Below are positions 38,208-48,588 of a DNA stretch of 64,000 nucleotides, piece after piece. Position numbers and translations under genes: made by a program. The DNA is from Dysgonomonas mossii DSM 22836 (GTDB lineage Bacteria; Bacteroidota; Bacteroidia; Bacteroidales; Dysgonomonadaceae). Each line of letters begins with the position of its first letter. Position 1 is the first letter of the stretch. Location of the stretch: contig NZ_GL892004.1 of NCBI RefSeq assembly GCF_000213575.1, positions 558,001 to 622,000 of the forward strand, read 5' to 3'. Below the pieces are notes generated by a model. It saw only the letters and a program-made list of their open reading frames with translations, did no database searches and had not been told where the DNA came from.

Positions 38208-38735
38208 TCAACAATGTGTGATTATGTTACTTTTTTCTGAAAATTCTAAGAGCTGAGCTGGATCCCTGTATTTATCCAACGTTTGCACATTTATGATTCT
38301 TTGATTACTGCTGCCTCTGAATCGTAATTCTTCACTTCGCAGTGCTTCAATATATTTGCCGTCTACCAAAACATCAATAAAAGGAAGAATCTGAGAAAGT
38401 CTATTCGATTTTAGAATGTCTTCATACAAAAAACCCGTATAGCACCAGATATTTTTGTTTGTTTCTGCTTTTATTCGTTGTGCAAGTTCTGTGAAACCTT
38501 CTACTTGAAACAGAGGATCTCCTCCTGTGAAGGTAACGTTTGCGAACTCATCTTCTTTTATGATCTCTAATAGCTGTTCAATGGTGTGTGGTGTGCCATT
38601 TTCTATATTCCACGATTGTGGGTTATGGCATCCCGGGCATCTATGTGTGCAACCGGCAGCGTAGATGGCTGTCCTGAATCCGGGGCCATCTACGGTGGTG
38701 TCATGTATAACGTTTAGTATTGATAACTTATTCAT
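38208..38735 (-). CDS. nrdG: Anaerobic ribonucleotide reductase activating enzyme
   Basis: A 175-residue radical SAM enzyme that makes the glycyl radical on NrdD. The cluster motif CTHRCPGC (CxxxCxxC) is near residue 30, followed by HNPQSWN and the FTGGDPL glycine-rich SAM site. Its start overlaps the end of nrdD by 8 bp, so the pair is translationally coupled. It is under the same cobalamin riboswitch as nrdD. Confidence 0.95.
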   Translation of the reverse strand: MNKLSILNVIHDTTVDGPGFRTAIYAAGCTHRCPGCHNPQSWNIENGTPHTIEQLLEIIKEDEFANVTFTGGDPLFQVEGFTELAQRIKAETNKNIWCYTGFLYEDILKSNRLSQILPFIDVLVDGKYIEALRSEELRFRGSSNQRIINVQTLDKYRDPAQLLEFSEKSNIITHC

Positions 38736-40935
38736 GAATAATGCGGTCGTTTAGCTCTGCTAGTTTAGCGCTGTTCCATCGGTCTGTTGTCCCTACCAGA
38801 TAACCGGTTATGCGTTGCAGGCGATCTATTTCGCTGCTACCACATTTGGGGCATCGGGTGAGCTTCGTATCCGAATTTTCATAGCCGCATTTCAAACAAC
38901 GGTTGCGGTTGTGATTCACAGAGGCATACCCCATATTATATTTATCCATCATATCCACTACTGTCAATATGGCATCGGGGTTGTGGGTGGCATCACCATC
39001 TATCTCTACATAGAAGATATGTCCTCCACGGGTTAGATCATGATAAGGAGCTTCTGTCTTGGCTTTCTTATGTGCACTGCATTGGTAATATACAGGTACA
39101 TGGTTCGAATTAGTGTAATATTCACGATCGGTAATACCCTTGATTAGTCCAAAGTCTTTTTTGTCTCTGCGGGTAAAGCGTCCGGCGAGACCTTCGGCTG
39201 GGGTGGCAAGTACACTGTAATTATGCTGATATTTTTCTGAGAATTCACTTACCCGATTTCTCATATAAGTTATGATCTCCAATCCGAGTTTTTGAGCTTG
39301 TTCGTCTTCTCCATGATGTTTTCCTACAAGTGCCACAAGAGCTTCGGCAAGACCTATAAAGCCAATGCCTAGTGTGCCCTGATTGATAACCTTCTCTATC
39401 GTGTTTTCATCTTTTACTTGCTCGCATCCTTCCCATAATACCGACATTAGTAACGGAAACTGTTTGGGAGCGGCAGTTTTCTGAAATTCGAACCTGCGAT
39501 GCAATTGTAATGCGGTCAGGTCGAGTATTTGGTTTAGTTTGCTGTAGAAGCAATCTATTCTTTCTTTTTCATTTTCTATATTTCTACATTCTAAGGCAAT
39601 GCGTACAAGATTGATTGTGGAGAAAGAGAGATTTCCCCGCCCGATAGATGTTTTCTTTCCAAAGCGGTTTTCGAATACACGTGTCCGGCAACCCATTGTA
39701 GCTACTTCGTGTTCAAATCGGCGAGGATCGTCAGCTTTCCAGTCTTCATGCTGGTTGAATGTCGCATCCAGATTCAAAAAGTTAGGGAAGAAACGGCGGG
39801 CACTCACCTTGCTGGCTAGTAAATAAAGATCATAATTTTTGTCGTCCGGCAAATAGTTTACACCTCGTTTCTTTTTCCATATTTGTATCGGAAAAATAGC
39901 CGTTACACCACTTCCTACACCTTCGTATGTGCTGTGGAGCAATTCACGAATGATGCAGCGACCCTCAGCGGAGGTATCTGTGCCGTAATTGACAGAGCTG
40001 AATACCACCTGATTCCCTCCACGAGAATGGATTGTGTTCATGTTGTGGATAAAGGCCTCCATCGATTGGTGAACCCTGCTCACTGTTCTGTTTATCGCAT
40101 GCTGTATAATTCGTTTGTCTCCTTCTAAATGTTTGACCGAAGAAGGAATATAATCATCTATTTCTACCTCGTACAAATGTTTGTATTCTATTCCTGTAGC
40201 TTGTTCTAGAACTTTTATTTCTTCAATAAAACTCTTGCGTACAAATGGAGCTAAATAAAAATCGAAAGCCGGAATGGCCTGTCCTCCATGCATCTCATTT
40301 TGTGCTGTTTCGAGTGAGATACAACCCAGCATACTCGCAGTCTCGATGCGTTTTGCAGGACGAGATTCTCCGTGCCCTGCAAAAAAACCATTCTGTAATA
40401 TCTTATCTAAAGGGTGTTGTACGCAAGTAAGGCTTTTGGTGGGGTAATAATCTTTGTCGTGTATATGCAGATAGTTGAGGCGAACAGCTTCTTTTACTTC
40501 CGGTAATAGTAAATAGTCATCCACAAATGGTTTGGTGGTTTCACTAGCGAACTTCATCATCATGCCGGCAGGAGTATCGGCATTCATGTTCGCATTTTCG
40601 CGCGTGATATCGTTCGATTTGGTTTCGATTATTTCCAGAAACATATCTCGCGTTTTGGCTTTGCGAGCAATGCTTCGTTTGTCACGATAGGCGATGTATT
40701 TTTTTGCCACTTCTTTGCGAGGGCTTTTCATCAGCTCCATTTCTACCATGTCTTGTATCTGCTCTACTGTCATTTGCTCATTGCCTTGGCAAGATACATA
40801 GTCTGTTATACGTCTTATTAAAATGGAGTCTTCTCCTTGTTCGGTGTGTAGCATGGCTTTGCGAACCGCTGCCATGATTTTTTCTTCATTAAAACCGACG
40901 ATACGTCCGTCTCTTTTTACAACTGTCTGAATCAT
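38728..40935 (-). CDS. nrdD: Anaerobic (class III) ribonucleoside-triphosphate reductase
   Basis: A 735-residue class III RNR that makes dNTPs without oxygen. It has an N-terminal ATP-cone (VVKRDGRIVGFNEEKIMAAV), the barrel, a C-terminal zinc site (CLKCGYEN then CPKCGSSE) and the glycyl radical end QRITGYLVGT. Characterised formate-dependent NrdDs use formate as reductant; whether this one does is not settled by these motifs. The 5' leader has a cobalamin riboswitch at 41064-41230, so the gene is probably repressed when B12 is plentiful. Confidence 0.96.
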   Translation of the reverse strand: MIQTVVKRDGRIVGFNEEKIMAAVRKAMLHTEQGEDSILIRRITDYVSCQGNEQMTVEQIQDMVEMELMKSPRKEVAKKYIAYRDKRSIARKAKTRDMFLEIIETKSNDITRENANMNADTPAGMMMKFASETTKPFVDDYLLLPEVKEAVRLNYLHIHDKDYYPTKSLTCVQHPLDKILQNGFFAGHGESRPAKRIETASMLGCISLETAQNEMHGGQAIPAFDFYLAPFVRKSFIEEIKVLEQATGIEYKHLYEVEIDDYIPSSVKHLEGDKRIIQHAINRTVSRVHQSMEAFIHNMNTIHSRGGNQVVFSSVNYGTDTSAEGRCIIRELLHSTYEGVGSGVTAIFPIQIWKKKRGVNYLPDDKNYDLYLLASKVSARRFFPNFLNLDATFNQHEDWKADDPRRFEHEVATMGCRTRVFENRFGKKTSIGRGNLSFSTINLVRIALECRNIENEKERIDCFYSKLNQILDLTALQLHRRFEFQKTAAPKQFPLLMSVLWEGCEQVKDENTIEKVINQGTLGIGFIGLAEALVALVGKHHGEDEQAQKLGLEIITYMRNRVSEFSEKYQHNYSVLATPAEGLAGRFTRRDKKDFGLIKGITDREYYTNSNHVPVYYQCSAHKKAKTEAPYHDLTRGGHIFYVEIDGDATHNPDAILTVVDMMDKYNMGYASVNHNRNRCLKCGYENSDTKLTRCPKCGSSEIDRLQRITGYLVGTTDRWNSAKLAELNDRIIHE

Positions 40936-41063
40936 ATTCGTTATCGTTTATACTTTTATTGTATCAATTAAAATATAACTGACAGGAGCAGGGAAGTACA
41001 CAGACTTATTTGAAGTGAATATGTTGTATAATTCTGCTGCTTTTCTCCCGAAAGCTAGAATGT

Positions 41064-41230
41064 ATATACGGCAGGTCTTCTGACTTATTTCGCAGTTGGT
41101 AACCTTCCCATCAGTATTCGTTGACAGTGGTGTGAGAGTCCAACTTCCTTTCTGAAATTTACAGCTACGGGGATAGTTCAGGTCTTTCACCTGATTCCCT
41201 TTTCATCCAATTTTACTTGGAACCGTATAT
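41064..41230 (-). ncRNA. Cobalamin riboswitch upstream of nrdDG
   Basis: The minus-strand leader has the B12 aptamer landmarks in order: P1 5' arm ATATACGG, GGGAATCAGGTGAAAGACCT, a GTAGCTGTAA core, GATGGGAAGG, GTCAGAAGACCTGCC (B12 box) and P1 3' arm CCGTATAT. The -7 box TAACTTTG at 41236-41243 puts the start of transcription at the first P1 base. The nrdD start codon is 128 nt downstream. No clear intrinsic terminator follows, so control of translation start is more likely. Confidence 0.93.
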
Positions 41231-41235
41231 GTTAA

Positions 41236-41243
41236 CAAAGTTA
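41236..41243 (-). promoter_or_regulatory. -7 box for nrdDG
   Basis: The minus strand reads TAACTTTG, 6 bp from the riboswitch P1 stem, identical in sequence and spacing to the pflB promoter. Confidence 0.6.
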
Positions 41244-41452
41244 TATGATTTTACTTAATAAAAGACTTGATTGGATATTTTATTTAAGTTTTTATTGGTG
41301 TATATTTTCTTTGTTTGTTGTTAATTGTCTGTTGTATAGTATGTTGAAATTTTGTTTTTGTTAAAAAGTTTTCTAAAAATAAAATTTTGTATTCTTATTG
41401 ATGATCTTTTTTTGTTTTTGTAAAGGTAGATGTTTTATGAATAATCTATATA

Positions 41453-42172
41453 TCAGATCTTAAGTCCATAATTTCGGAAAATATTTTCAGCCTTCTCTAT
41501 TTCCGACTGATCAGGAGGCGCAATGTCTCTAAGCTTGTAGTCTTCGCCTAGCTGTTCCCATTTATGCAACCCCATTTGATGAAAAGGTAAAATATCTACT
41601 CGCTGTACATTTTTATATTCAGAGACTTGTTTTGCCCAGTCATTCAGGTCTTCATCATCATCGGTGAAGCCCGGAACGAGCACATATCTCAGCCAAACAG
41701 GTTTCTCAATTTCTGAGAGGTACTGCATGAAGCGAAGTGTTGGTTCCAGTGGTTTTGCTGTGAGGTTTTTATATTTGTCGGGGTTAATATGCTTAATATC
41801 TAGTAGTACTAGATCTGTGTACTCTAAAACCTCCTTTACCTTATCGTTCAATATATATCCAGATGTGTCTATAGCTGTATGTAAACCTTCACTTTTACAC
41901 AGCTTAAATAGCTCGATAATGAACTGGGGTTGTAGTAGGGGCTCTCCTCCTGAGATGGTTACACCTCCACTGCGGATGAAGTTTTTTACTTTCTTTACTT
42001 CTTCGAAAGCTTCTTCCGGAGTTAGTTCGTGCTTCTTGTCGTTCATATTCCATGTGTCGGGATTGTGACAATAGAGGCAGCGAAGAGGACAGCCTTGCAT
42101 AAAAAATACAAACCTTATCCCCGGGCCGTCTTTGGTTCCAAAAGACTCGAAAGAATGAATTAAACCTTTCAT
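41453..42172 (-). CDS. pflA: Pyruvate formate-lyase activating enzyme
   Basis: A 239-residue radical SAM enzyme that installs the glycyl radical in PflB. The N-terminal FGTKDGPGIRFVFFMQGCPL and the cluster motif CPLRCLYC are diagnostic, followed by HNPDTWN and TISGGEPLLQP. It lies 197 bp downstream of pflB on the same strand, with a hairpin repeat between, so readthrough or a separate promoter must supply it. Confidence 0.95.
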   Translation of the reverse strand: MKGLIHSFESFGTKDGPGIRFVFFMQGCPLRCLYCHNPDTWNMNDKKHELTPEEAFEEVKKVKNFIRSGGVTISGGEPLLQPQFIIELFKLCKSEGLHTAIDTSGYILNDKVKEVLEYTDLVLLDIKHINPDKYKNLTAKPLEPTLRFMQYLSEIEKPVWLRYVLVPGFTDDDEDLNDWAKQVSEYKNVQRVDILPFHQMGLHKWEQLGEDYKLRDIAPPDQSEIEKAENIFRNYGLKI

Positions 42173-42229
42173 TATTTGTTTTCCTCCTAATAAATAATGA
42201 GGAGACTCCTAAAGTTTTTTTACTATCCT

Positions 42230-42303
42230 TTTGTCATGTTGAACGGAGTGAAACATCTCGTTTATAGATAGTCGAGATTCTTCATTACATTCAGAATGAC
42301 AAA
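42230..42303. repeat. REP-like palindromic repeat between pflB and pflA
   Basis: An imperfect 31-bp inverted repeat: TTTGTCATGTTGAACGGAGT at the left, and at the right a complementary arm ending TTCAGAATGACAAA. The sequence resembles the GTCATTCTGAGCGAAG...AATCTC interspersed repeats seen in many Bacteroidetes and Chlorobi genomes. As an mRNA it would fold into a strong hairpin between the two pfl cistrons. Confidence 0.7.
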
Positions 42304-42369
42304 GAGGATAATAATCGTTTAATAGAGTATTTTTACTTTTGGGGTAACCTCATATTTATTAATGAAATA

Positions 42370-44601
42370 TTAGAATGATGTAGTAATCGTTCTATTTATC
42401 ACATCCAATTGCTGTTCTTTTGTAAGCCTTACGAAGTTAACGGCATAGCCTGATACACGTATTGTCAACTGAGGATATTTTTCAGGGTGTTCCATCGCAT
42501 CGATAAGCAGATTCCTGTCAAATACATTAACGTTCAGGTGATGGCCTGTTTGTAAGAAGTAGCCATCAAGAAGTCCGCTCAGGTTTTGAGCTTCCTCTTT
42601 CCTGTTTTTACCCAATGTGTTTGGCGTGATAGCAAAAGTGTATGAGATACCATCATTTGCGTGAGCAAACGGAAGCTTAGCTACAGATGAAAGTGATGCA
42701 ACAGCACCTCTAGTGTCACGCCCGTGCATAGGGTTAGCTCCCGGAGCAAAAGGTGTTCCTCCACGTCGTCCGTCAGGGGTGTTTCCTGTTTTCTTTCCGT
42801 ACACCACGTTTGATGTGATGGTTAACACCGACTGTGTAGGTATAGCATCTTTATACATCTTACGTTTGCGGATTTTGCTCATAAACTTTTCTACTATTTC
42901 CACAGCAAACCTGTCGGTCTTGTCATCGTTATTCCCAAACGGAACGTAGTCTTTTTCTATGATATAGTCGACTGCGTCACCTTCTTCATTTCTTACGATG
43001 CGTACTTTTCCGTATTTGATAGCAGCAAAAGAGTCGGCGATAATAGATAACCCCGAAACCCCGAATGCTTGTGTGCGGACGATATCAACATCATGCAAAG
43101 CCATTTCCAAAGCTTCGTATGAATATTTATCGTGCATATAGTGTATAATGTTCAGCGCTTTTACATAAGTCTCGGCAACCCAATCTAAGGTACGATCAAA
43201 TTTCTCCCAAACTTCTTCAAAGTCAAGATACTCTCCTGAGACCTTTTCTACCCAATGTTTCGGTAATACTTGAGCTTTGGTTATTTCGTCCTTACCTCCG
43301 TTTATAGTGTAAAGCAATGCTTTAGGCAAGTTCGCTCTTGCACCGAAGAATTGCATCTGGTGGCCTATCCGCATGGGCGATACACAACATGCTATGCCGT
43401 AATCATCGCCTAACTGAGGGCGCATCAGATCGTCATTCTCGTATTGAAGAGATGAAGTATCGATAGAAACCTTGGCACAATAATGTTTCCAGTTTTCGGG
43501 TAGTCTGTCACTCCATAGTATTGTCAAATTAGGTTCAGGTGCAGGCCCTAAATTATAAAGCGTATGAAGCATACGGTAGCTGTTTTTCGTAACCATCGAC
43601 TTTCCGTTGTTTGTCATACCTCCGATCGATTCGGTTACCCATACAGGATCTCCCGAAAATAGTTCATTGTATTCATTTGTGCGGAGGAAACGGACAATAC
43701 GTAGCTTCATCACAAAATGATCGATAAGCTCTTGCGCGTCTATTTCGGTTATTAAGCCGGCCTGCAAATCTCTTTCGATATAGATATCGAGGAAAGTGGT
43801 TACACGTCCGAGGCTCATTGCTGCGCCATTTTGGTCTTTGATAGCTCCCAGATATCCAAAGTATGTCCACTGGATAGCTTCCAGAGCCGTATTAGCCGGT
43901 TGAGAAATATCGAAGCCATACGAAGCTGCCATACGTTTCAATGCTTTCAAGGCCTCTATTTGTGAACTTAGCTCTTCACGAAGACGAATCAGATCGTCCG
44001 TCATCACAATAGGGTCACATTCTTGGAAACGCTTTTCACGCTCCGAGATTAATCGATCTACACCATAAAGAGCTACTCTGCGATAATCTCCAATAATACG
44101 TCCACGTCCGTAAGCATCAGGTAGGCCCGTTAATAATCCGTTACTTCTGGCTTGGCGGATGCTGTCGGTATAAGCTGCAAATACACCTTCGTTGTGTGTA
44201 CGTCTGTATTTTGAGAATATTTCCTCTGTTCCTTTGTCGAGTTTGTAACCATATTCAGCTAAGCTTTGTTTCACCATACGGAGACCTCCATTCGGAAAGA
44301 TTGCTCTTTTTAGTGGCTTGTCGGTCTGAACTCCTACAATTTTTTCGAGTTCGTTGTCTATATATCCGGGTCCATAAGCATCAATCTGTGAAGGGATGCG
44401 AGTTTCGGCATCATATATGCCTCTCTCCTTTTCTTCAAGAAACATTTTGCTTAACTTCTCCCATAGCTTGATTGTTGCTTCGGTAGGGTTTTGTAGAAAA
44501 GATTCGTCCCCTGTGTATTCTTTATAGTTTTGGAGTATAAAATCATTTACATTGATTTCCTCTTGCCACCGTGTGCCTTTAAAGTTTTTATATGCTTCCA
44601 T
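42370..44601 (-). CDS. pflB: Formate C-acetyltransferase (pyruvate formate-lyase)
   Basis: A 743-residue glycyl radical enzyme that converts pyruvate and CoA to formate and acetyl-CoA. The catalytic Cys pair is in GIACCVSPM, and the glycyl radical motif is [10 protein letters not shown] near the C-terminus. The length and the [20 protein letters not shown] segment are those of genuine PflB rather than a diol dehydratase relative. A cobalamin riboswitch occupies its leader (44783-44962), which I do not know from other pfl operons. Confidence 0.97.
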
Positions 44602-44782
44602 TTAATTATAAAATAAATTTCTAAATACTCAATTATCGGAGCTTACGTGGAATAGAATAAGAAACAAATACAGACGTATTTAAATAAAATGTAATAGAAT
44701 AAAATAGAGAATTTTTTTTCTATCTGAAAAAAAATCCCATCCTAAATCCTCAGCTTTATTCCTCGAAAGCTTCAAATTACAC

Positions 44783-44962
44783 GGTTCTGGCAGGTCTTCT
44801 GACTTACTTTATCTTTGAGCATCCTTCCCATTCAGTGTAAGAACAGTGGATAGAGTATTGTTCAAAGTCTTTGGAGGAGCTTACAGCAGCGGGTCTGTCC
44901 AGGACTTTCACCTGATTCCCTTTTCATCATTTTCTATGGATATAGTAAATGACACCAAAACC
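44783..44962 (-). ncRNA. Cobalamin riboswitch upstream of pflB
   Basis: On the minus strand: P1 5' arm GGTTTTGG, GGGAATCAGGTGAAAGTCCT, GCTGCTGTAAGC, AATGGGAAGG, GTCAGAAGACCTGCC (B12 box) and P1 3' arm CCAGAACC. Its B12 box is identical to that of the nrdD element, and the distance from P1 to the TAACTTTG promoter is the same, suggesting duplication. The pflB ATG is about 180 nt downstream. Confidence 0.93.
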
Positions 44963-44967
44963 TGTGA

Positions 44968-44975
44968 CAAAGTTA
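44968..44975 (-). promoter_or_regulatory. -7 box for pflB
   Basis: The minus strand reads TAACTTTG, 6 bp from the riboswitch P1 stem. About 135 bp separate it from the divergent thrE-operon promoter. Confidence 0.6.
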
Positions 44976-45109: not shown

Positions 45110-45117
45110 TACCTTTG
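45110..45117 (+). promoter_or_regulatory. -7 box for the ThrE-type operon
   Basis: TACCTTTG matches TAnnTTTG and lies 37 bp before the P1 stem of the riboswitch. Confidence 0.6.
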
Positions 45118-45153
45118 CCTCCCGAAAGTTCTTTATCATTATTCTTCAACCGC

Positions 45154-45311
45154 TAAGGTGCCTCAGATATTGAGGAGAATAGGGAATCAGGTGAAAGTCC
45201 TGAGCTGTCGCGCAACTGTAATCACCGCGAAAGTTTCTATTTAAAAATCCACTGTTTCGTACAGAAATGGGAAGGAAAATAGAAATGGTGAAAGCCAGGA
45301 TACCTGCCTTA
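45154..45311 (+). ncRNA. Cobalamin riboswitch upstream of the ThrE-type exporter operon
   Basis: Plus-strand landmarks: P1 5' arm TAAGG, GGGAATCAGGTGAAAGTCCT, CGCGCAACTGTAATCACCGC, AATGGGAAGG, GAAAGCCAGGATACCTGCC (B12 box) and P1 3' arm CCTTA. The core and B12 box are closer to the general consensus than the two minus-strand elements. The leader from here to the thrE ATG is about 165 nt. Confidence 0.94.
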
Positions 45312-45475
45312 AATCGGATTGACAATGCTTCGCGATAAAAGTGTTATGTCTAATAATTTCATTCATCCCTCTTGTCGGAGGAGATGTTATTATCCAGGTG
45401 TGTTTTTATTGCAGCATTGTGAAGTTCAAAAGAGCTTTTTACATTTATGTTTAATCGTAAAAAGTTTAGAAAGAA

Positions 45476-46318
45476 ATGCGCGCAAACGTTCTTGATTATT
45501 CGCATATTGATGATCGATGTGCAGATGTAGAAAACACACATTCAGGCAAAGAGTTGTCGCTGAAGGAATTTGTAGACATCATATTGGAGGTCAGTAGCCT
45601 GTTGCTTGAATCGGGAGCCCACTGTGAAAGAATTAATAGGAATGTACAACGTATAGCACAGAAGACAAACTATAAAGTAGAAATGCTGATTTCGTTTACT
45701 GCTGTCTCGGTCTCGGTAACTGATATGGATAATGAGGAAAACATAATAACGGCCAATAAGAAGATAATACATCATGGGGTACACTTTGGAATACTCACCA
45801 ATACCAGTCTGCTTACATGGGAACTTGCCGAAGATCGTATTTCCTTACAGGAGTTGCACGAGCGTATAAAAGGGTTAAAGAATACCTCTCGTTATTCAGT
45901 CTGGCTTGTTCGTCTGTTCATTGGGATAGCTTGCGGTTCGTTATGTTTACTTGCCGGAGGAAATTTAATAGATGGGGCTTTTACTTTTTTAGCTTCTTTT
46001 GTGGGGCTTGTAGTACGTCAGGAGATGATCAAGAGAAAATTTAACCTGATGGTTATTGTAATCTGCTCAGCGTTTGTGACAACAACCATATCAGGATTGA
46101 ATATCTTGTCTGGATTTGGTTATTTGCCTCAAACATCTATTGCTACTTCTGTATTGTTCCTTATTCCGGGAGTTCCTCTAATAAATAGTATAATCGATTT
46201 GCTTGAAGGGTATATTCCTACAGGTATAGCCCGTGGAGCATTCGGAGGATTTATTCTCTTATGTATCGCTGTGGGGATGTTTATTAGTATGACAATAATA
46301 GGAATAAGTAATTTTTGA
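45476..46318 (+). CDS. ThrE-type (DUF1212) exporter, large subunit
   Basis: A 280-residue protein. The N-terminal soluble half has the ThrE pattern (LLLESGAHCERINRNVQRIA), and the C-terminal half has about five transmembrane helices (SLCLLAGGNLIDGAFTFLAS, PQTSIATSVLFLIPGVPLIN). In Corynebacterium, one ThrE polypeptide exports threonine and serine; here the two halves are split into this gene and the next, which overlaps by 4 bp. The upstream cobalamin riboswitch implies a role tied to B12 status. What it transports is unknown. Confidence 0.85.
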   Translation: MRANVLDYSHIDDRCADVENTHSGKELSLKEFVDIILEVSSLLLESGAHCERINRNVQRIAQKTNYKVEMLISFTAVSVSVTDMDNEENIITANKKIIHHGVHFGILTNTSLLTWELAEDRISLQELHERIKGLKNTSRYSVWLVRLFIGIACGSLCLLAGGNLIDGAFTFLASFVGLVVRQEMIKRKFNLMVIVICSAFVTTTISGLNILSGFGYLPQTSIATSVLFLIPGVPLINSIIDLLEGYIPTGIARGAFGGFILLCIAVGMFISMTIIGISNF

Positions 46319-46827
46319 TTATGCTAATAGATATATTGAAAGACGCTCTTCTTAGTTTTTTTGTTGCTATAGGTTTTGCACTATTGTTCGAAACGCCAAA
46401 GAAGGGATTGTTGGTTGCCGGTTTGCTGGGAGGGCTGGGGCATGCTATTCGCTTCACGTTATTGTATTTTGGTTTTGGCTTGATCTCCGCTACGTTGAGT
46501 GGGACTGTTGTGATAGGGCTTTTGGGTATCTATTGTGCTCATAAAATACATACTCCTCCGGTTGTATTTACATTGCCGGCTTGTATAACGATGATACCGG
46601 GTTTGTATGCCTACAAAACGATGCTGGGATGTATAAGAATATACGAAGAGGGAACGACGGGTGCAAAAACAGCATTCTTATTACACGACACGGTTTACAA
46701 TTTTATATTGACATCGTCTTTACTCTTTTGTCTGGCAATCGGTATATGTATTGCCGCATTATTGTTTCGGAAGAAGAGTGTGAAGAAAATAAAGAAGATA
46801 AAAGATTTAGGAATAAAAATATTTTGA
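46315..46827 (+). CDS. ThrE-type (DUF3815) exporter, small subunit
   Basis: A 170-residue membrane protein with about five helices, corresponding to the second half of full-length ThrE (LLVAGLLGGLGHAIRFTLLY, VFTLPACITMIPGLYAYKTM). It overlaps the preceding gene by 4 bp and probably forms a complex with it. The C-terminus is lysine-rich (KKSVKKIKKIKDLG). The next gene begins 30 bp downstream. Confidence 0.85.
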   Translation: MIMLIDILKDALLSFFVAIGFALLFETPKKGLLVAGLLGGLGHAIRFTLLYFGFGLISATLSGTVVIGLLGIYCAHKIHTPPVVFTLPACITMIPGLYAYKTMLGCIRIYEEGTTGAKTAFLLHDTVYNFILTSSLLFCLAIGICIAALLFRKKSVKKIKKIKDLGIKIF

Positions 46828-46857: not shown

Positions 46858-48588
46858 ATGCTGCAAGAATTTACATTAAACAGGGATCGTGCTATCATCA
46901 ATTTCTCTTTGAAGTATTGTGATAACAGACAGAAAATTTTAAGTAGTTACGCGTTTCATCGGGTGGTTGAATCCTTTATTTTCAGAATAAAGAAAGACAA
47001 CCAGATTATTTACGATTATTTTATTAAAGATTTCAAAACTGATGAGGAGCTTACCATGTCTTTGATAGAGGTTGTTAAGCTTTTGACTGTATGTGAAATA
47101 GATGAGCTTTTGGTGGTAAACAATAAGTTTGCTCCATTCTTTAAGGATAAAGGCTTGTTTATAGAGCTTATAGAAATGCTGTATAACTATTGGAGAAGGC
47201 TGGAGCGGGTTACTGTTGTTCACAACAACCGCATGGGTGATGGTCTCCAAAATGTACGCTTTGTGCAAGCGAACCAACTCCTCAACGAGTTGATTCTGTC
47301 TATCTACAGACGTACAGAAGAAACGGTAATGGGATACAGCCATAGCGTATACCGTCAGACTATCGCAGGTGCTAATGCCGGCTTGATGCTTAACGATATG
47401 CAATGGAATTGTCCGATTGAGTATAAAGGGCTTGCATCTATACCATTTATAGGAACAGTAGTTATCAATCCTCCTTATATTTCATATACGAAGAAGAATA
47501 CAAGAGATGGTATTTTTCAGGAACATCAAACAAACCCTTTGGCTAATTTGATTCTGAATGAGGATGAGTGGTTTTTGTATCCTGCAAAAGTTGGTAACTT
47601 GTTGGCTTTTGTCTATTTCCATAAAGATTTTATGTGTCATGGTTTAGGTCTTGCCAATTTGTTTGAGCTGGCTAAAGGCAATGATTATGTAGGAAAGAAA
47701 CCCGATTTGATTTACGTATTCGGATATCCTGACGGCTATGAAGAAAAACGTACTTTCTATCATAAGGATAAGAAGAATGATATATTGATCGGTTATGCTA
47801 ATTATTGCGATGAGATCGACTATTTCGGTTATATGAAGAAGATGCTTCTTACGCTGCATAATATCAAGCAAATGGAAAGAGGTAACCTTCCTATTCATGG
47901 GGCTATGGTAAACATTGCATTGAAGAATGGTAAAGAAGCAAATATCATTATAATGGGAGATAGTGGAGCGGGCAAATCTGAAAGCCTCGAAGCTTTCCGC
48001 ACACTCAACGAAAAATATATACGTCACATGCGTGTAATATTCGATGATATGGGATATTTGCAATTTGAAGCTGATGGGCAAATAAAAGGATACGGAACAG
48101 AAATAGGGGCGTTTGTTCGTACCGACGATTTGGATCCTGCTTATGCTTTTGCTCAGCTGGATAGAGGTATTTATACGAACCCGGATAGAATAAATGCACG
48201 AGTAACCATTCCGATATCTACTTATGAAGTTATATCGAGAGGGTATACGATTGATTATATGCTATATGCTAATAATTATGCCGAATCGGAAACAAAGATC
48301 AGTTTCTTTGAGGATGTAGATAAAGCAATACAGGTTTTTGAAGACGGAGCAAGAAAGGCAAAAGGAACAACAACAGAAAAAGGGCTTGTTAAGTCTTATT
48401 TCGCAAATCCTTTTGGCCCTGTGCAAGAAAGAGATAGAGCGGAAACACTTGTTCGTAAATTCTTCTTGGCTTTAGACGAAAGTGATGCAAAAATTGGAGA
48501 GATGCATACTTCTTTGGCGATTGATGGTAAAAGCAAAGAAGGGCCACGTGAAGCGGCAGAAGAGCTTTTCAGTATTATTAATGAATAA
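46858..48588 (+). CDS. P-loop protein with PEPCK/HPr-kinase-like core
   Basis: A 576-residue soluble protein. A Walker-A type loop, IIMGDSGAGKSESLEAF, lies near residue 365 and is followed by an acidic motif (VIFDDMGYL), as in PEP carboxykinase and HPr kinase folds. The N-terminal 300 residues are unlike classical PEPCK. It is a known but uncharacterised family of Bacteroidetes and Firmicutes, often labelled PEPCK-like. It is the third gene of the riboswitch-controlled operon and ends at a bidirectional hairpin. I do not claim PEPCK activity. Confidence 0.7.
   Translation: MLQEFTLNRDRAIINFSLKYCDNRQKILSSYAFHRVVESFIFRIKKDNQIIYDYFIKDFKTDEELTMSLIEVVKLLTVCEIDELLVVNNKFAPFFKDKGLFIELIEMLYNYWRRLERVTVVHNNRMGDGLQNVRFVQANQLLNELILSIYRRTEETVMGYSHSVYRQTIAGANAGLMLNDMQWNCPIEYKGLASIPFIGTVVINPPYISYTKKNTRDGIFQEHQTNPLANLILNEDEWFLYPAKVGNLLAFVYFHKDFMCHGLGLANLFELAKGNDYVGKKPDLIYVFGYPDGYEEKRTFYHKDKKNDILIGYANYCDEIDYFGYMKKMLLTLHNIKQMERGNLPIHGAMVNIALKNGKEANIIIMGDSGAGKSESLEAFRTLNEKYIRHMRVIFDDMGYLQFEADGQIKGYGTEIGAFVRTDDLDPAYAFAQLDRGIYTNPDRINARVTIPISTYEVISRGYTIDYMLYANNYAESETKISFFEDVDKAIQVFEDGARKAKGTTTEKGLVKSYFANPFGPVQERDRAETLVRKFFLALDESDAKIGEMHTSLAIDGKSKEGPREAAEELFSIINE

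Follow-up and report, generated by a model that had tools for sequence, protein, structure and literature searches.

A locus where formate and vitamin B12 meet

Why should genes for the production of formate carry a riboswitch for vitamin B12? The question is raised by a locus of Dysgonomonas mossii DSM 22836, located in a stretch of 64,000 nucleotides (nt) of assembly GCF_000213575.1 (contig NZ_GL892004.1, positions 558,001 to 622,000), hereafter the window. Two operons lie there side by side on the minus strand, nrdDG for an anaerobic ribonucleotide reductase and pflBA for pyruvate formate-lyase (PFL) and its activase, and each is led by a cobalamin riboswitch (Rfam family RF00174). An earlier note on this DNA, which we shall call the original prediction, had recognized these two riboswitch-led neighbours, running in one direction, and had proposed that they form a linked formate module; it had overlooked a third riboswitch, which diverges from the others. 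We lean, by a small measure, towards a B12-free anaerobic programme as the explanation of the locus: shortage of B12 would switch on PFL, which would feed NrdD with formate and shift fermentation as well. The features concerned are the following, in window coordinates:

38208 to 38735, minus strand: nrdG (TIGR02491, 164.5 bits, cut-off 126.1)
38728 to 40935, minus strand: nrdD, class III ribonucleotide reductase of the formate type, with ATP-cone (PRK07111, 982.7 bits, cut-off 764)
41053 to 41242, minus strand: cobalamin riboswitch 1, leader of nrdDG (RF00174, 110.6 bits, E 7.7e-27)
41236 to 41243, minus strand: TAnnTTTG element at the start of the nrdD leader (pattern match)
41453 to 42172, minus strand: pflA, pyruvate formate-lyase activase (TIGR02493, 344.4 bits, cut-off 231.75)
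42370 to 44601, minus strand: pflB, pyruvate formate-lyase (TIGR01255, 1143 bits, cut-off 994.2)
44772 to 44975, minus strand: cobalamin riboswitch 2, leader of pflBA (RF00174, 103.3 bits, E 9.1e-25)
44968 to 44975, minus strand: TAnnTTTG element at the start of the pflB leader (pattern match)
45110 to 45117, plus strand: TAnnTTTG element upstream of riboswitch 3 (pattern match)
45141 to 45325, plus strand: cobalamin riboswitch 3, divergent, leading the row of yjjP-like, yjjB-like and PEPCK-like genes (RF00174, 103.2 bits)
45476 to 46318, plus strand: ThrE-domain protein, homologue of Escherichia coli YjjP (PF06738, 172 bits; 29% identity to YjjP, E 5e-33)
46315 to 46827, plus strand: ThrE_2 protein, homologue of E. 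coli YjjB (PF12821, 100 bits; 32% identity to YjjB, E 4e-25)
46858 to 48588, plus strand: protein of 576 residues resembling phosphoenolpyruvate carboxykinase (PEPCK), with a GDSGAGKS P-loop (PEPCK match weak and well below cut-off, E 1.8e-6)

The three riboswitches score between 103 and 111 bits, for a gathering score of 31.5 bits, and their matches end 117 nt before the ATG of nrdD and 170 nt before that of pflB for the first two. They are three of the eight cobalamin riboswitches of a genome of 3.95 Mb (99.99% complete), gathered within 4.3 kb. The nrdD product is also above cut-off for TIGR02487 in the curated family search. PflB carries both Cys405-Cys406 and the glycyl-radical Gly718; a dehydratase-type glycyl radical enzyme was ruled out by its score above the TIGR01255 cut-off.

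A formate-type reductase and its B12-dependent counterpart

The NrdD of the window aligns over 734 residues, ungapped, with the Prevotella copri NrdD of structure 8p23 (1327 bits), and it keeps C171, C416, N435 and G711 at the P. copri positions. According to its description, the P. copri enzyme requires formate, its Asn435 replacing the third cysteine of other enzymes (PMC11226230). The SCCR motif is specific to another class, NrdDh, of which the N. bacilliformis enzyme can use thioredoxin (PMC4493059, section 13 for the motif). Neither SCCR nor its variant MCCR is found in the window NrdD, which has the sequence characters of the formate type (NrdD1/NrdDc). The formate dependence asserted in the original prediction is thus borne out as far as sequence type can tell, and dependence on thioredoxin or glutaredoxin is ruled out on the same basis (N435, no SCCR or MCCR). 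Among 30 aligned NrdDs, 14 are of the formate type, every one from the 26 genomes of the Dysgonomonas clade, and 16 carry SCCR or MCCR (MCCR in two); the sister genome G017 stands outside this alignment, its NrdD type being assigned from 98% identity.

The same genome encodes the B12-dependent reductase NrdJ (TIGR02504, 579.8 bits, cut-off 400), the only class I or class II ribonucleotide reductase that was matched there. Because of this counterpart, NrdDG is, from the genes present, a B12-free spare for NrdJ, and nrdDG fits the pattern of a B12-independent isozyme placed under a B12 riboswitch. The second operon is of another kind: we know of no B12-dependent enzyme for the PFL reaction, and PflB matches the ordinary family, so that pflBA falls outside the isozyme pattern.

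The programme that we favour is built on the riboswitches, the identities of the genes, the NrdD type, the presence of NrdJ and of methylmalonyl-CoA mutase (matched in 65 of the 66 Dysgonomonadaceae genomes) and the recurrence of the arrangement in relatives. When B12 is plentiful, leaders bound to adenosylcobalamin would repress nrdDG, pflBA and the yjjPB-like genes; DNA precursors would be made by NrdJ, and succinate would be converted to propionate via the B12-dependent mutase. When B12 is low, the riboswitches would release all three operons. NrdDG would then take over ribonucleotide reduction, needing formate, PflBA would convert pyruvate to formate and acetyl-CoA, and the YjjPB-like pair would export the succinate for which the way to propionate is closed. 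Repression by B12, the flow of formate from PFL to NrdD and the export of succinate are the steps that we infer.

Paired riboswitches in the Dysgonomonadaceae

PflB is present in 41 of the 66 genomes of the family, and its leader is visible in 38 of them, 23 from the Dysgonomonas clade and 15 others. A cobalamin riboswitch precedes pflB in 12 of the 38, all within the clade, with intact aptamers of 87 to 109 bits. Its presence varies with the type of NrdD: it is found in 10/13 genomes with a formate-type NrdD, in 1/9 with an SCCR-type and in 1/16 where no full NrdD was found (these 16 include G034, with a partial match of 94.6 bits, and G040, with a match below cut-off). The contrast between formate-type genomes and all others (10/13 against 2/25) gives a Fisher p of 3e-5, that between formate-type and SCCR-type genomes 0.0075, and that within the clade (10/13 against 2/10) has a p of 0.012. 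Relatedness is left out of account in these tests, and of the 9 SCCR-type genomes 7 are not members of the clade.

Some choices define these counts. Not included are the pflB of G005, which sits at the edge of a contig, and G051 and G052 with a partial PflB; G013 and G014 have no PflB. G008, at 32.8 bits just over the gathering score, was counted as having no riboswitch, the 3' half of its aptamer looking lost. Leaders L119-L122, L220-L246 and L386-L394 were judged by a pattern script and not by Rfam; the script agreed with Rfam on strong sites, missed two decayed ones and did not call one strong-looking site cut at the contig edge in L132. Applied to genomes of the order outside the family, it gave no riboswitch in 27 PflB leaders, a sample taken from 40 such genomes, and the idea of a general Bacteroidales feature was rejected on this ground.

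The prediction that the paired riboswitches are co-conserved stands in part. The sister genome G017 has the same nrdDG and pflBA neighbours, 98-99% identical, and in G016 and G007 nrdDG adjoins a pflBA-focA row, each with its own riboswitch. The pairing recurs at separate loci too, both operons being riboswitch-led on different contigs in G006 and G012 and about 28 kb apart in G022. What does not hold is strict co-occurrence, as will be seen when the exceptions are weighed. The reductase is the steadier partner: all 12 NrdDs at 83-100% identity to that of the window have an upstream riboswitch (that of G014 decayed), and control of nrdDG is therefore the more constant half of the pair.

In a quickly built PflB tree, with several forks left unresolved, the riboswitch looks to have arisen a single time, within a subtree of 18 rows (SH-like approximate likelihood ratio support 93), and lost five times (in G024, G018, G019 and G010, and by decay in G008); four of these five genomes have no NrdD match. 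The association of loss with lack of NrdD has a p of 0.028 over 17 rows (G005 left out), in which the rows keeping the riboswitch are not independent. Three of the losers, G018, G019 and G024, retain six to eight cobalamin riboswitches elsewhere, and G024 keeps one on its yjjPB-like genes. The two decayed sites (the L096/L134 pair) fit a tie between pflB and NrdD: in the pflB leader of G008 it is the 3' half of the aptamer that looks lost, and no NrdD was found in that genome, while in the nrdD leader of G014 the centre of the aptamer looks lost in a genome that gave no PflB. The trees of PflB and NrdJ disagree, and the nearest PflBs found outside the Bacteroidales are those of Streptobacillus and Oceanivirga, which suggests horizontal transfer. 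The PflB of Dysgonomonas sp. 521 is 91% identical to that of the window. As a side observation, the riboswitch-led pflB of G020 has upstream of it a sequence that matches FopS, a small RNA family of the Bacteroidetes (RF04319, 77 bits, L108:4389-4463).

A wider B12 regulon

Formate production is only one of the activities that would be brought under this control. A focA-like gene follows pflBA in 8 of the 12 riboswitch-led cases, as compared with 2 of the 11 leaders counted as having no riboswitch (G008 and G009; p 0.036), and a focA-like gene standing by itself in G021 has its own riboswitch. These products are above cut-off for the formate/nitrite family TIGR00790 and below it for the FocA equivalog TIGR04060. 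Stand-alone focA-like genes in G010, G018, G022, G059, G060, G062 and G005 have no riboswitch upstream, and neither the genome of the window nor its sister G017 has a FocA-like match at E 1e-20.

We further surveyed the riboswitch neighbourhoods of eight genomes (65 sites in the main survey), naming genes by eye from their initial residues except where we cite a family search. Numerous genes of B12 uptake and synthesis are riboswitch-led in these genomes. In the window's own genome, four of the five riboswitches away from the locus precede receptor, transport and cob/cbi genes (labels by eye); the fifth (L005/L010, G000:C3:255882-256085) precedes a small Cys-rich protein, a PEPCK-like paralogue and a phosphoenolpyruvate (PEP) carboxylase, the last verified by family search (PRK00009, 1095 bits). 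A riboswitch-led PEPCK-like protein recurs in 7 of the 8 surveyed genomes, followed in 6 by an apparent PEP carboxylase. Riboswitch-led PEPCK-like genes stand next to succinate-exporter-like genes in the window and in G062, next to an AspT-family transporter in G012, and next to PEP carboxylase at the C3 site and in several relatives. The PEPCK-like protein of the window itself matched no Pfam family at E 0.001, and its AlphaFold prediction, with nine close homologues, has a mean predicted local distance difference test score of 41.

Other riboswitch-led genes extend the list. They comprise a probable iron alcohol dehydrogenase with a CoA-acylating aldehyde dehydrogenase (G005, best families below cut-off; G007 by eye), a pair resembling an acyl-CoA carboxylase, with an MmdA-like protein below cut-off and a biotin carboxylase (G005, G006, G062; G012 and G021 by eye), MetE (G005, G007), class Ib NrdE and NrdF (verified in G007; G005, G006 and G021 by eye) and an AspT/YidE-family transporter (G012). 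The carboxylase-like pair (sites L209, L210, L218, L324, L329) lies downstream of nrdDG in G005, G006 and G062. The class Ib nrdIEF genes of G005 and G021 and the alcohol and aldehyde dehydrogenase genes of G007 were seen to be preceded by tandem cobalamin riboswitches (sites L287, L321, L305; names by eye).

The divergent row of the window would belong to the same regulon. A yjjP/yjjB-like pair is riboswitch-led in at least 12 of the 26 clade genomes, a lower bound, the yjjPB-like leaders of G010 and G015 being cut by contig ends. In G021 a riboswitch, thrE, thrE2, nrdD and nrdG follow one another on one strand, with a gap of 507 nt before nrdD and no second riboswitch listed between thrE2 and nrdD; if this row is one transcript, the exporter-like pair and the reductase share one switch. 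The E. coli YjjP and YjjB are annotated in RefSeq as a putative succinate exporter, and yjjPB is treated as a succinate transporter in the literature (PMC7236211); Pfam and NCBIfam call the ThrE and ThrE_2 domains threonine/serine exporter. We take succinate export as the likely role of the YjjPB-like pair. A linked formate module is therefore only part of the picture: both operons are riboswitch-led, as had been proposed, but the regulon is broader, with FocA-like proteins, probable alcohol and aldehyde dehydrogenases, PEP carboxylase and YjjPB-like proteins, so that supplying NrdD with formate is probably not the sole purpose of the control of pflBA.

The leaders

The leaders of nrdDG and pflBA had been described as near-identical, which was taken to suggest that one was copied from the other. 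Neither view is upheld by comparison. With gaps counted, identity between the nrdD and pflB aptamers is 52.9%, within the range of 42-63% for pairs among the eight riboswitches of the genome. In a set of 37 riboswitches, 8 of them from this genome and 29 from relatives, that of nrdD is nearest to the nrdD riboswitches of G017 (97%), then of G016, G022 and G006 (73-75%); that of pflB is nearest to the pflB riboswitch of G017 (97%), then to the carboxylase riboswitch of G006 (72%) and the pflB riboswitches of G023, G006 and G012 (67-72%), followed by the nrdD riboswitches of G023 and G020 (66%). Since the closest kin of both are thus in other species, and mostly at the same gene, a recent local copy is not supported.

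A hairpin lies 3' of the aptamer, and its loop is often complementary to loop L5, a pairing that we take to be the L5-L13 contact of cobalamin riboswitches. The complement is exact over 4 nt in the nrdD leader (L5 CCCG, downstream loop CGGG) and in the thrE leader, that of riboswitch 3 (CGCG with CGCG). It is exact in 70 of 106 parsed sites and inexact in 36, nine more sites being unparsed, as compared with 440 of 3508 in a swap control, and the partners covary between leaders (CCCG/CGGG, CGCG/CGCG, CCTG/CAGG). When the leaders were folded, no clear terminator was recognized by eye as expression platform. The TAnnTTTG pattern, presumably the Bacteroidetes -7 consensus, occurs 92 times in the window on its two strands, one occurrence standing at or just before each of the three leaders.

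Weighing the explanations

Several facts weigh against the programme that we favour. G010, G059 and G062 have a formate-type NrdD and no pflB riboswitch; conversely, G003 has this riboswitch with an SCCR-type NrdD, and G015 has it in a genome (94% complete) where no NrdD was found. The NrdJ tree yields four supported independent pairs, with a mean of 2.4 for the association and 0.1 against it, too few for significance. In the pflB leader of the window the downstream loop, CGAG, departs by one mismatch from complementarity to L5 CCCG. The genome of the window and 23 of the 25 other clade genomes gave no MetE, so that fully B12-free growth may need methionine. Finally, the pflB riboswitch is associated as strongly with a yjjPB-like riboswitch as with formate-type NrdD (p 0.012 each), and the formate and fermentation purposes are therefore not statistically separable.

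In a second reading the riboswitches govern fermentation only: with the way from succinate to propionate blocked, the cell would derepress PFL and PEP carboxylase, together with the export of formate and succinate and the formation of ethanol, and so send its carbon along other routes, and the use of formate by NrdD would be incidental. NrdD uses about one formate per deoxynucleoside triphosphate (dNTP), far below the capacity of PFL. The rows of pflB, pflA and a focA-like gene behind a riboswitch in eight genomes, together with the focA-like gene of G021, the yjjPB-like genes of the clade, the probable ethanol enzymes and the PEPCK-like gene followed by PEP carboxylase, speak for this reading, as do G003 and G015, where riboswitch, pflB, pflA and focA stand together in genomes that lack a recognized formate-type NrdD. 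What makes it the less probable, while still a serious possibility, is that the pflB riboswitch was lost or decayed mainly where NrdD is absent, though three such genomes keep many cobalamin riboswitches elsewhere; that G024, with no NrdD match, keeps the riboswitch of the exporter-like genes and has none on pflB; and that a FocA-like match is missing from the genome of the window and from its sister. These three observations point to use of formate by NrdD, just as the riboswitches on focA-like genes, on genes of probable ethanol enzymes and on that of PEP carboxylase, with G003 and G015, point to use in fermentation.

One may also think of one-carbon supply. With B12-dependent methionine synthase idle, methyl-tetrahydrofolate (methyl-THF) would accumulate, and formate from PFL would restore formyl-THF for purines. 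The failure to find MetE in 24 of the 26 clade genomes goes in this direction, and in other bacteria PFL-derived formate does feed formyl-THF, the pfl motif being associated with pfl, fhs and purH (PMC2864571, PMC12288474). However, inspection by eye of the genes immediately downstream of the 65 sites recognized no fhs, purT or folD (they were not searched genome-wide), and we consider this explanation improbable. Still further down we place mere hitch-hiking, in which pflBA would have moved between strains with a leader acquired once, and with no adaptive tie to NrdD. The conflict between the PflB and NrdJ trees, the apparent single gain followed by losses and the kinship with Streptobacillus and Oceanivirga are in keeping with it; aptamers kept intact across divergent hosts in all 12 pflB leaders, covarying loop partners and losses falling mostly in genomes that lack NrdD argue against it, and we give it very little credit. 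To return to the B12-free programme, its broadest form has, in our judgement, about even chances: a switch set by the vitamin through many independent RNA leaders, between a B12-dependent state of propionate and NrdJ and a B12-free state of formate, succinate and ethanol, in which PFL would also supply the formate of the replacement reductase.

Known systems and what the locus would mean

A riboswitch already known to be associated with pfl genes is the pfl motif, which we take to be the ZTP riboswitch. As there (PMC2864571), where it is thought to supply formate for biosynthesis, an RNA leader is found here at pfl; in contrast, the pfl motif belongs to another RNA family with another ligand, is predicted to activate genes, and is tied to purines and not to B12 or dNTPs. 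For the reductase a precedent exists: a B12-element stands on nrdDG, beside NrdJ, in Desulfovibrio vulgaris and Desulfuromonas (PMC545781). The arrangement of NrdDG behind a cobalamin riboswitch in a genome with NrdJ is the same, but in the passages concerned the reductase stands alone, whereas here the adjoining pflBA and the exporter-like pair have riboswitches of their own. The cobalamin regulons of the Bacteroidaceae (PMC3766115) likewise have riboswitches on B12 uptake genes and on isozymes of B12-dependent enzymes; in the main text of that study the words 'pfl', 'formate', 'nrd' and 'ribonucleotide reductase' do not occur. Nor does the excerpt of a Shewanella study name a cobalamin riboswitch at pflB (PMC2659441). 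The remark in the original prediction that no description of the regulon had been seen must be divided: B12-riboswitch control of nrdDG was already known; for pfl genes, searches aimed at the point in open-licence papers gave no report of a cobalamin riboswitch, which is not proof of absence.

Another member of the Bacteroidales, Xylanibacter ruminicola KHP1, makes propionate from succinate in a B12-dependent way, and its four cobalamin riboswitches are reported not to lie near the genes of the propionate pathway (PMC11575231). Control of fermentation genes, as proposed here, would be a departure from that situation. B12 riboswitches have mostly been described on the supply of the vitamin and on spare isozymes; in the Dysgonomonas clade they also stand on genes of central fermentation. 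If our explanation is right, two glycyl radical enzymes, one that makes formate and one that consumes it, would be linked by a shared regulator, and B12-starved cells would need PFL, or added formate, to make DNA. The availability of a vitamin would then exert, at the level of RNA, direct control over the acids that a Bacteroidales bacterium excretes.

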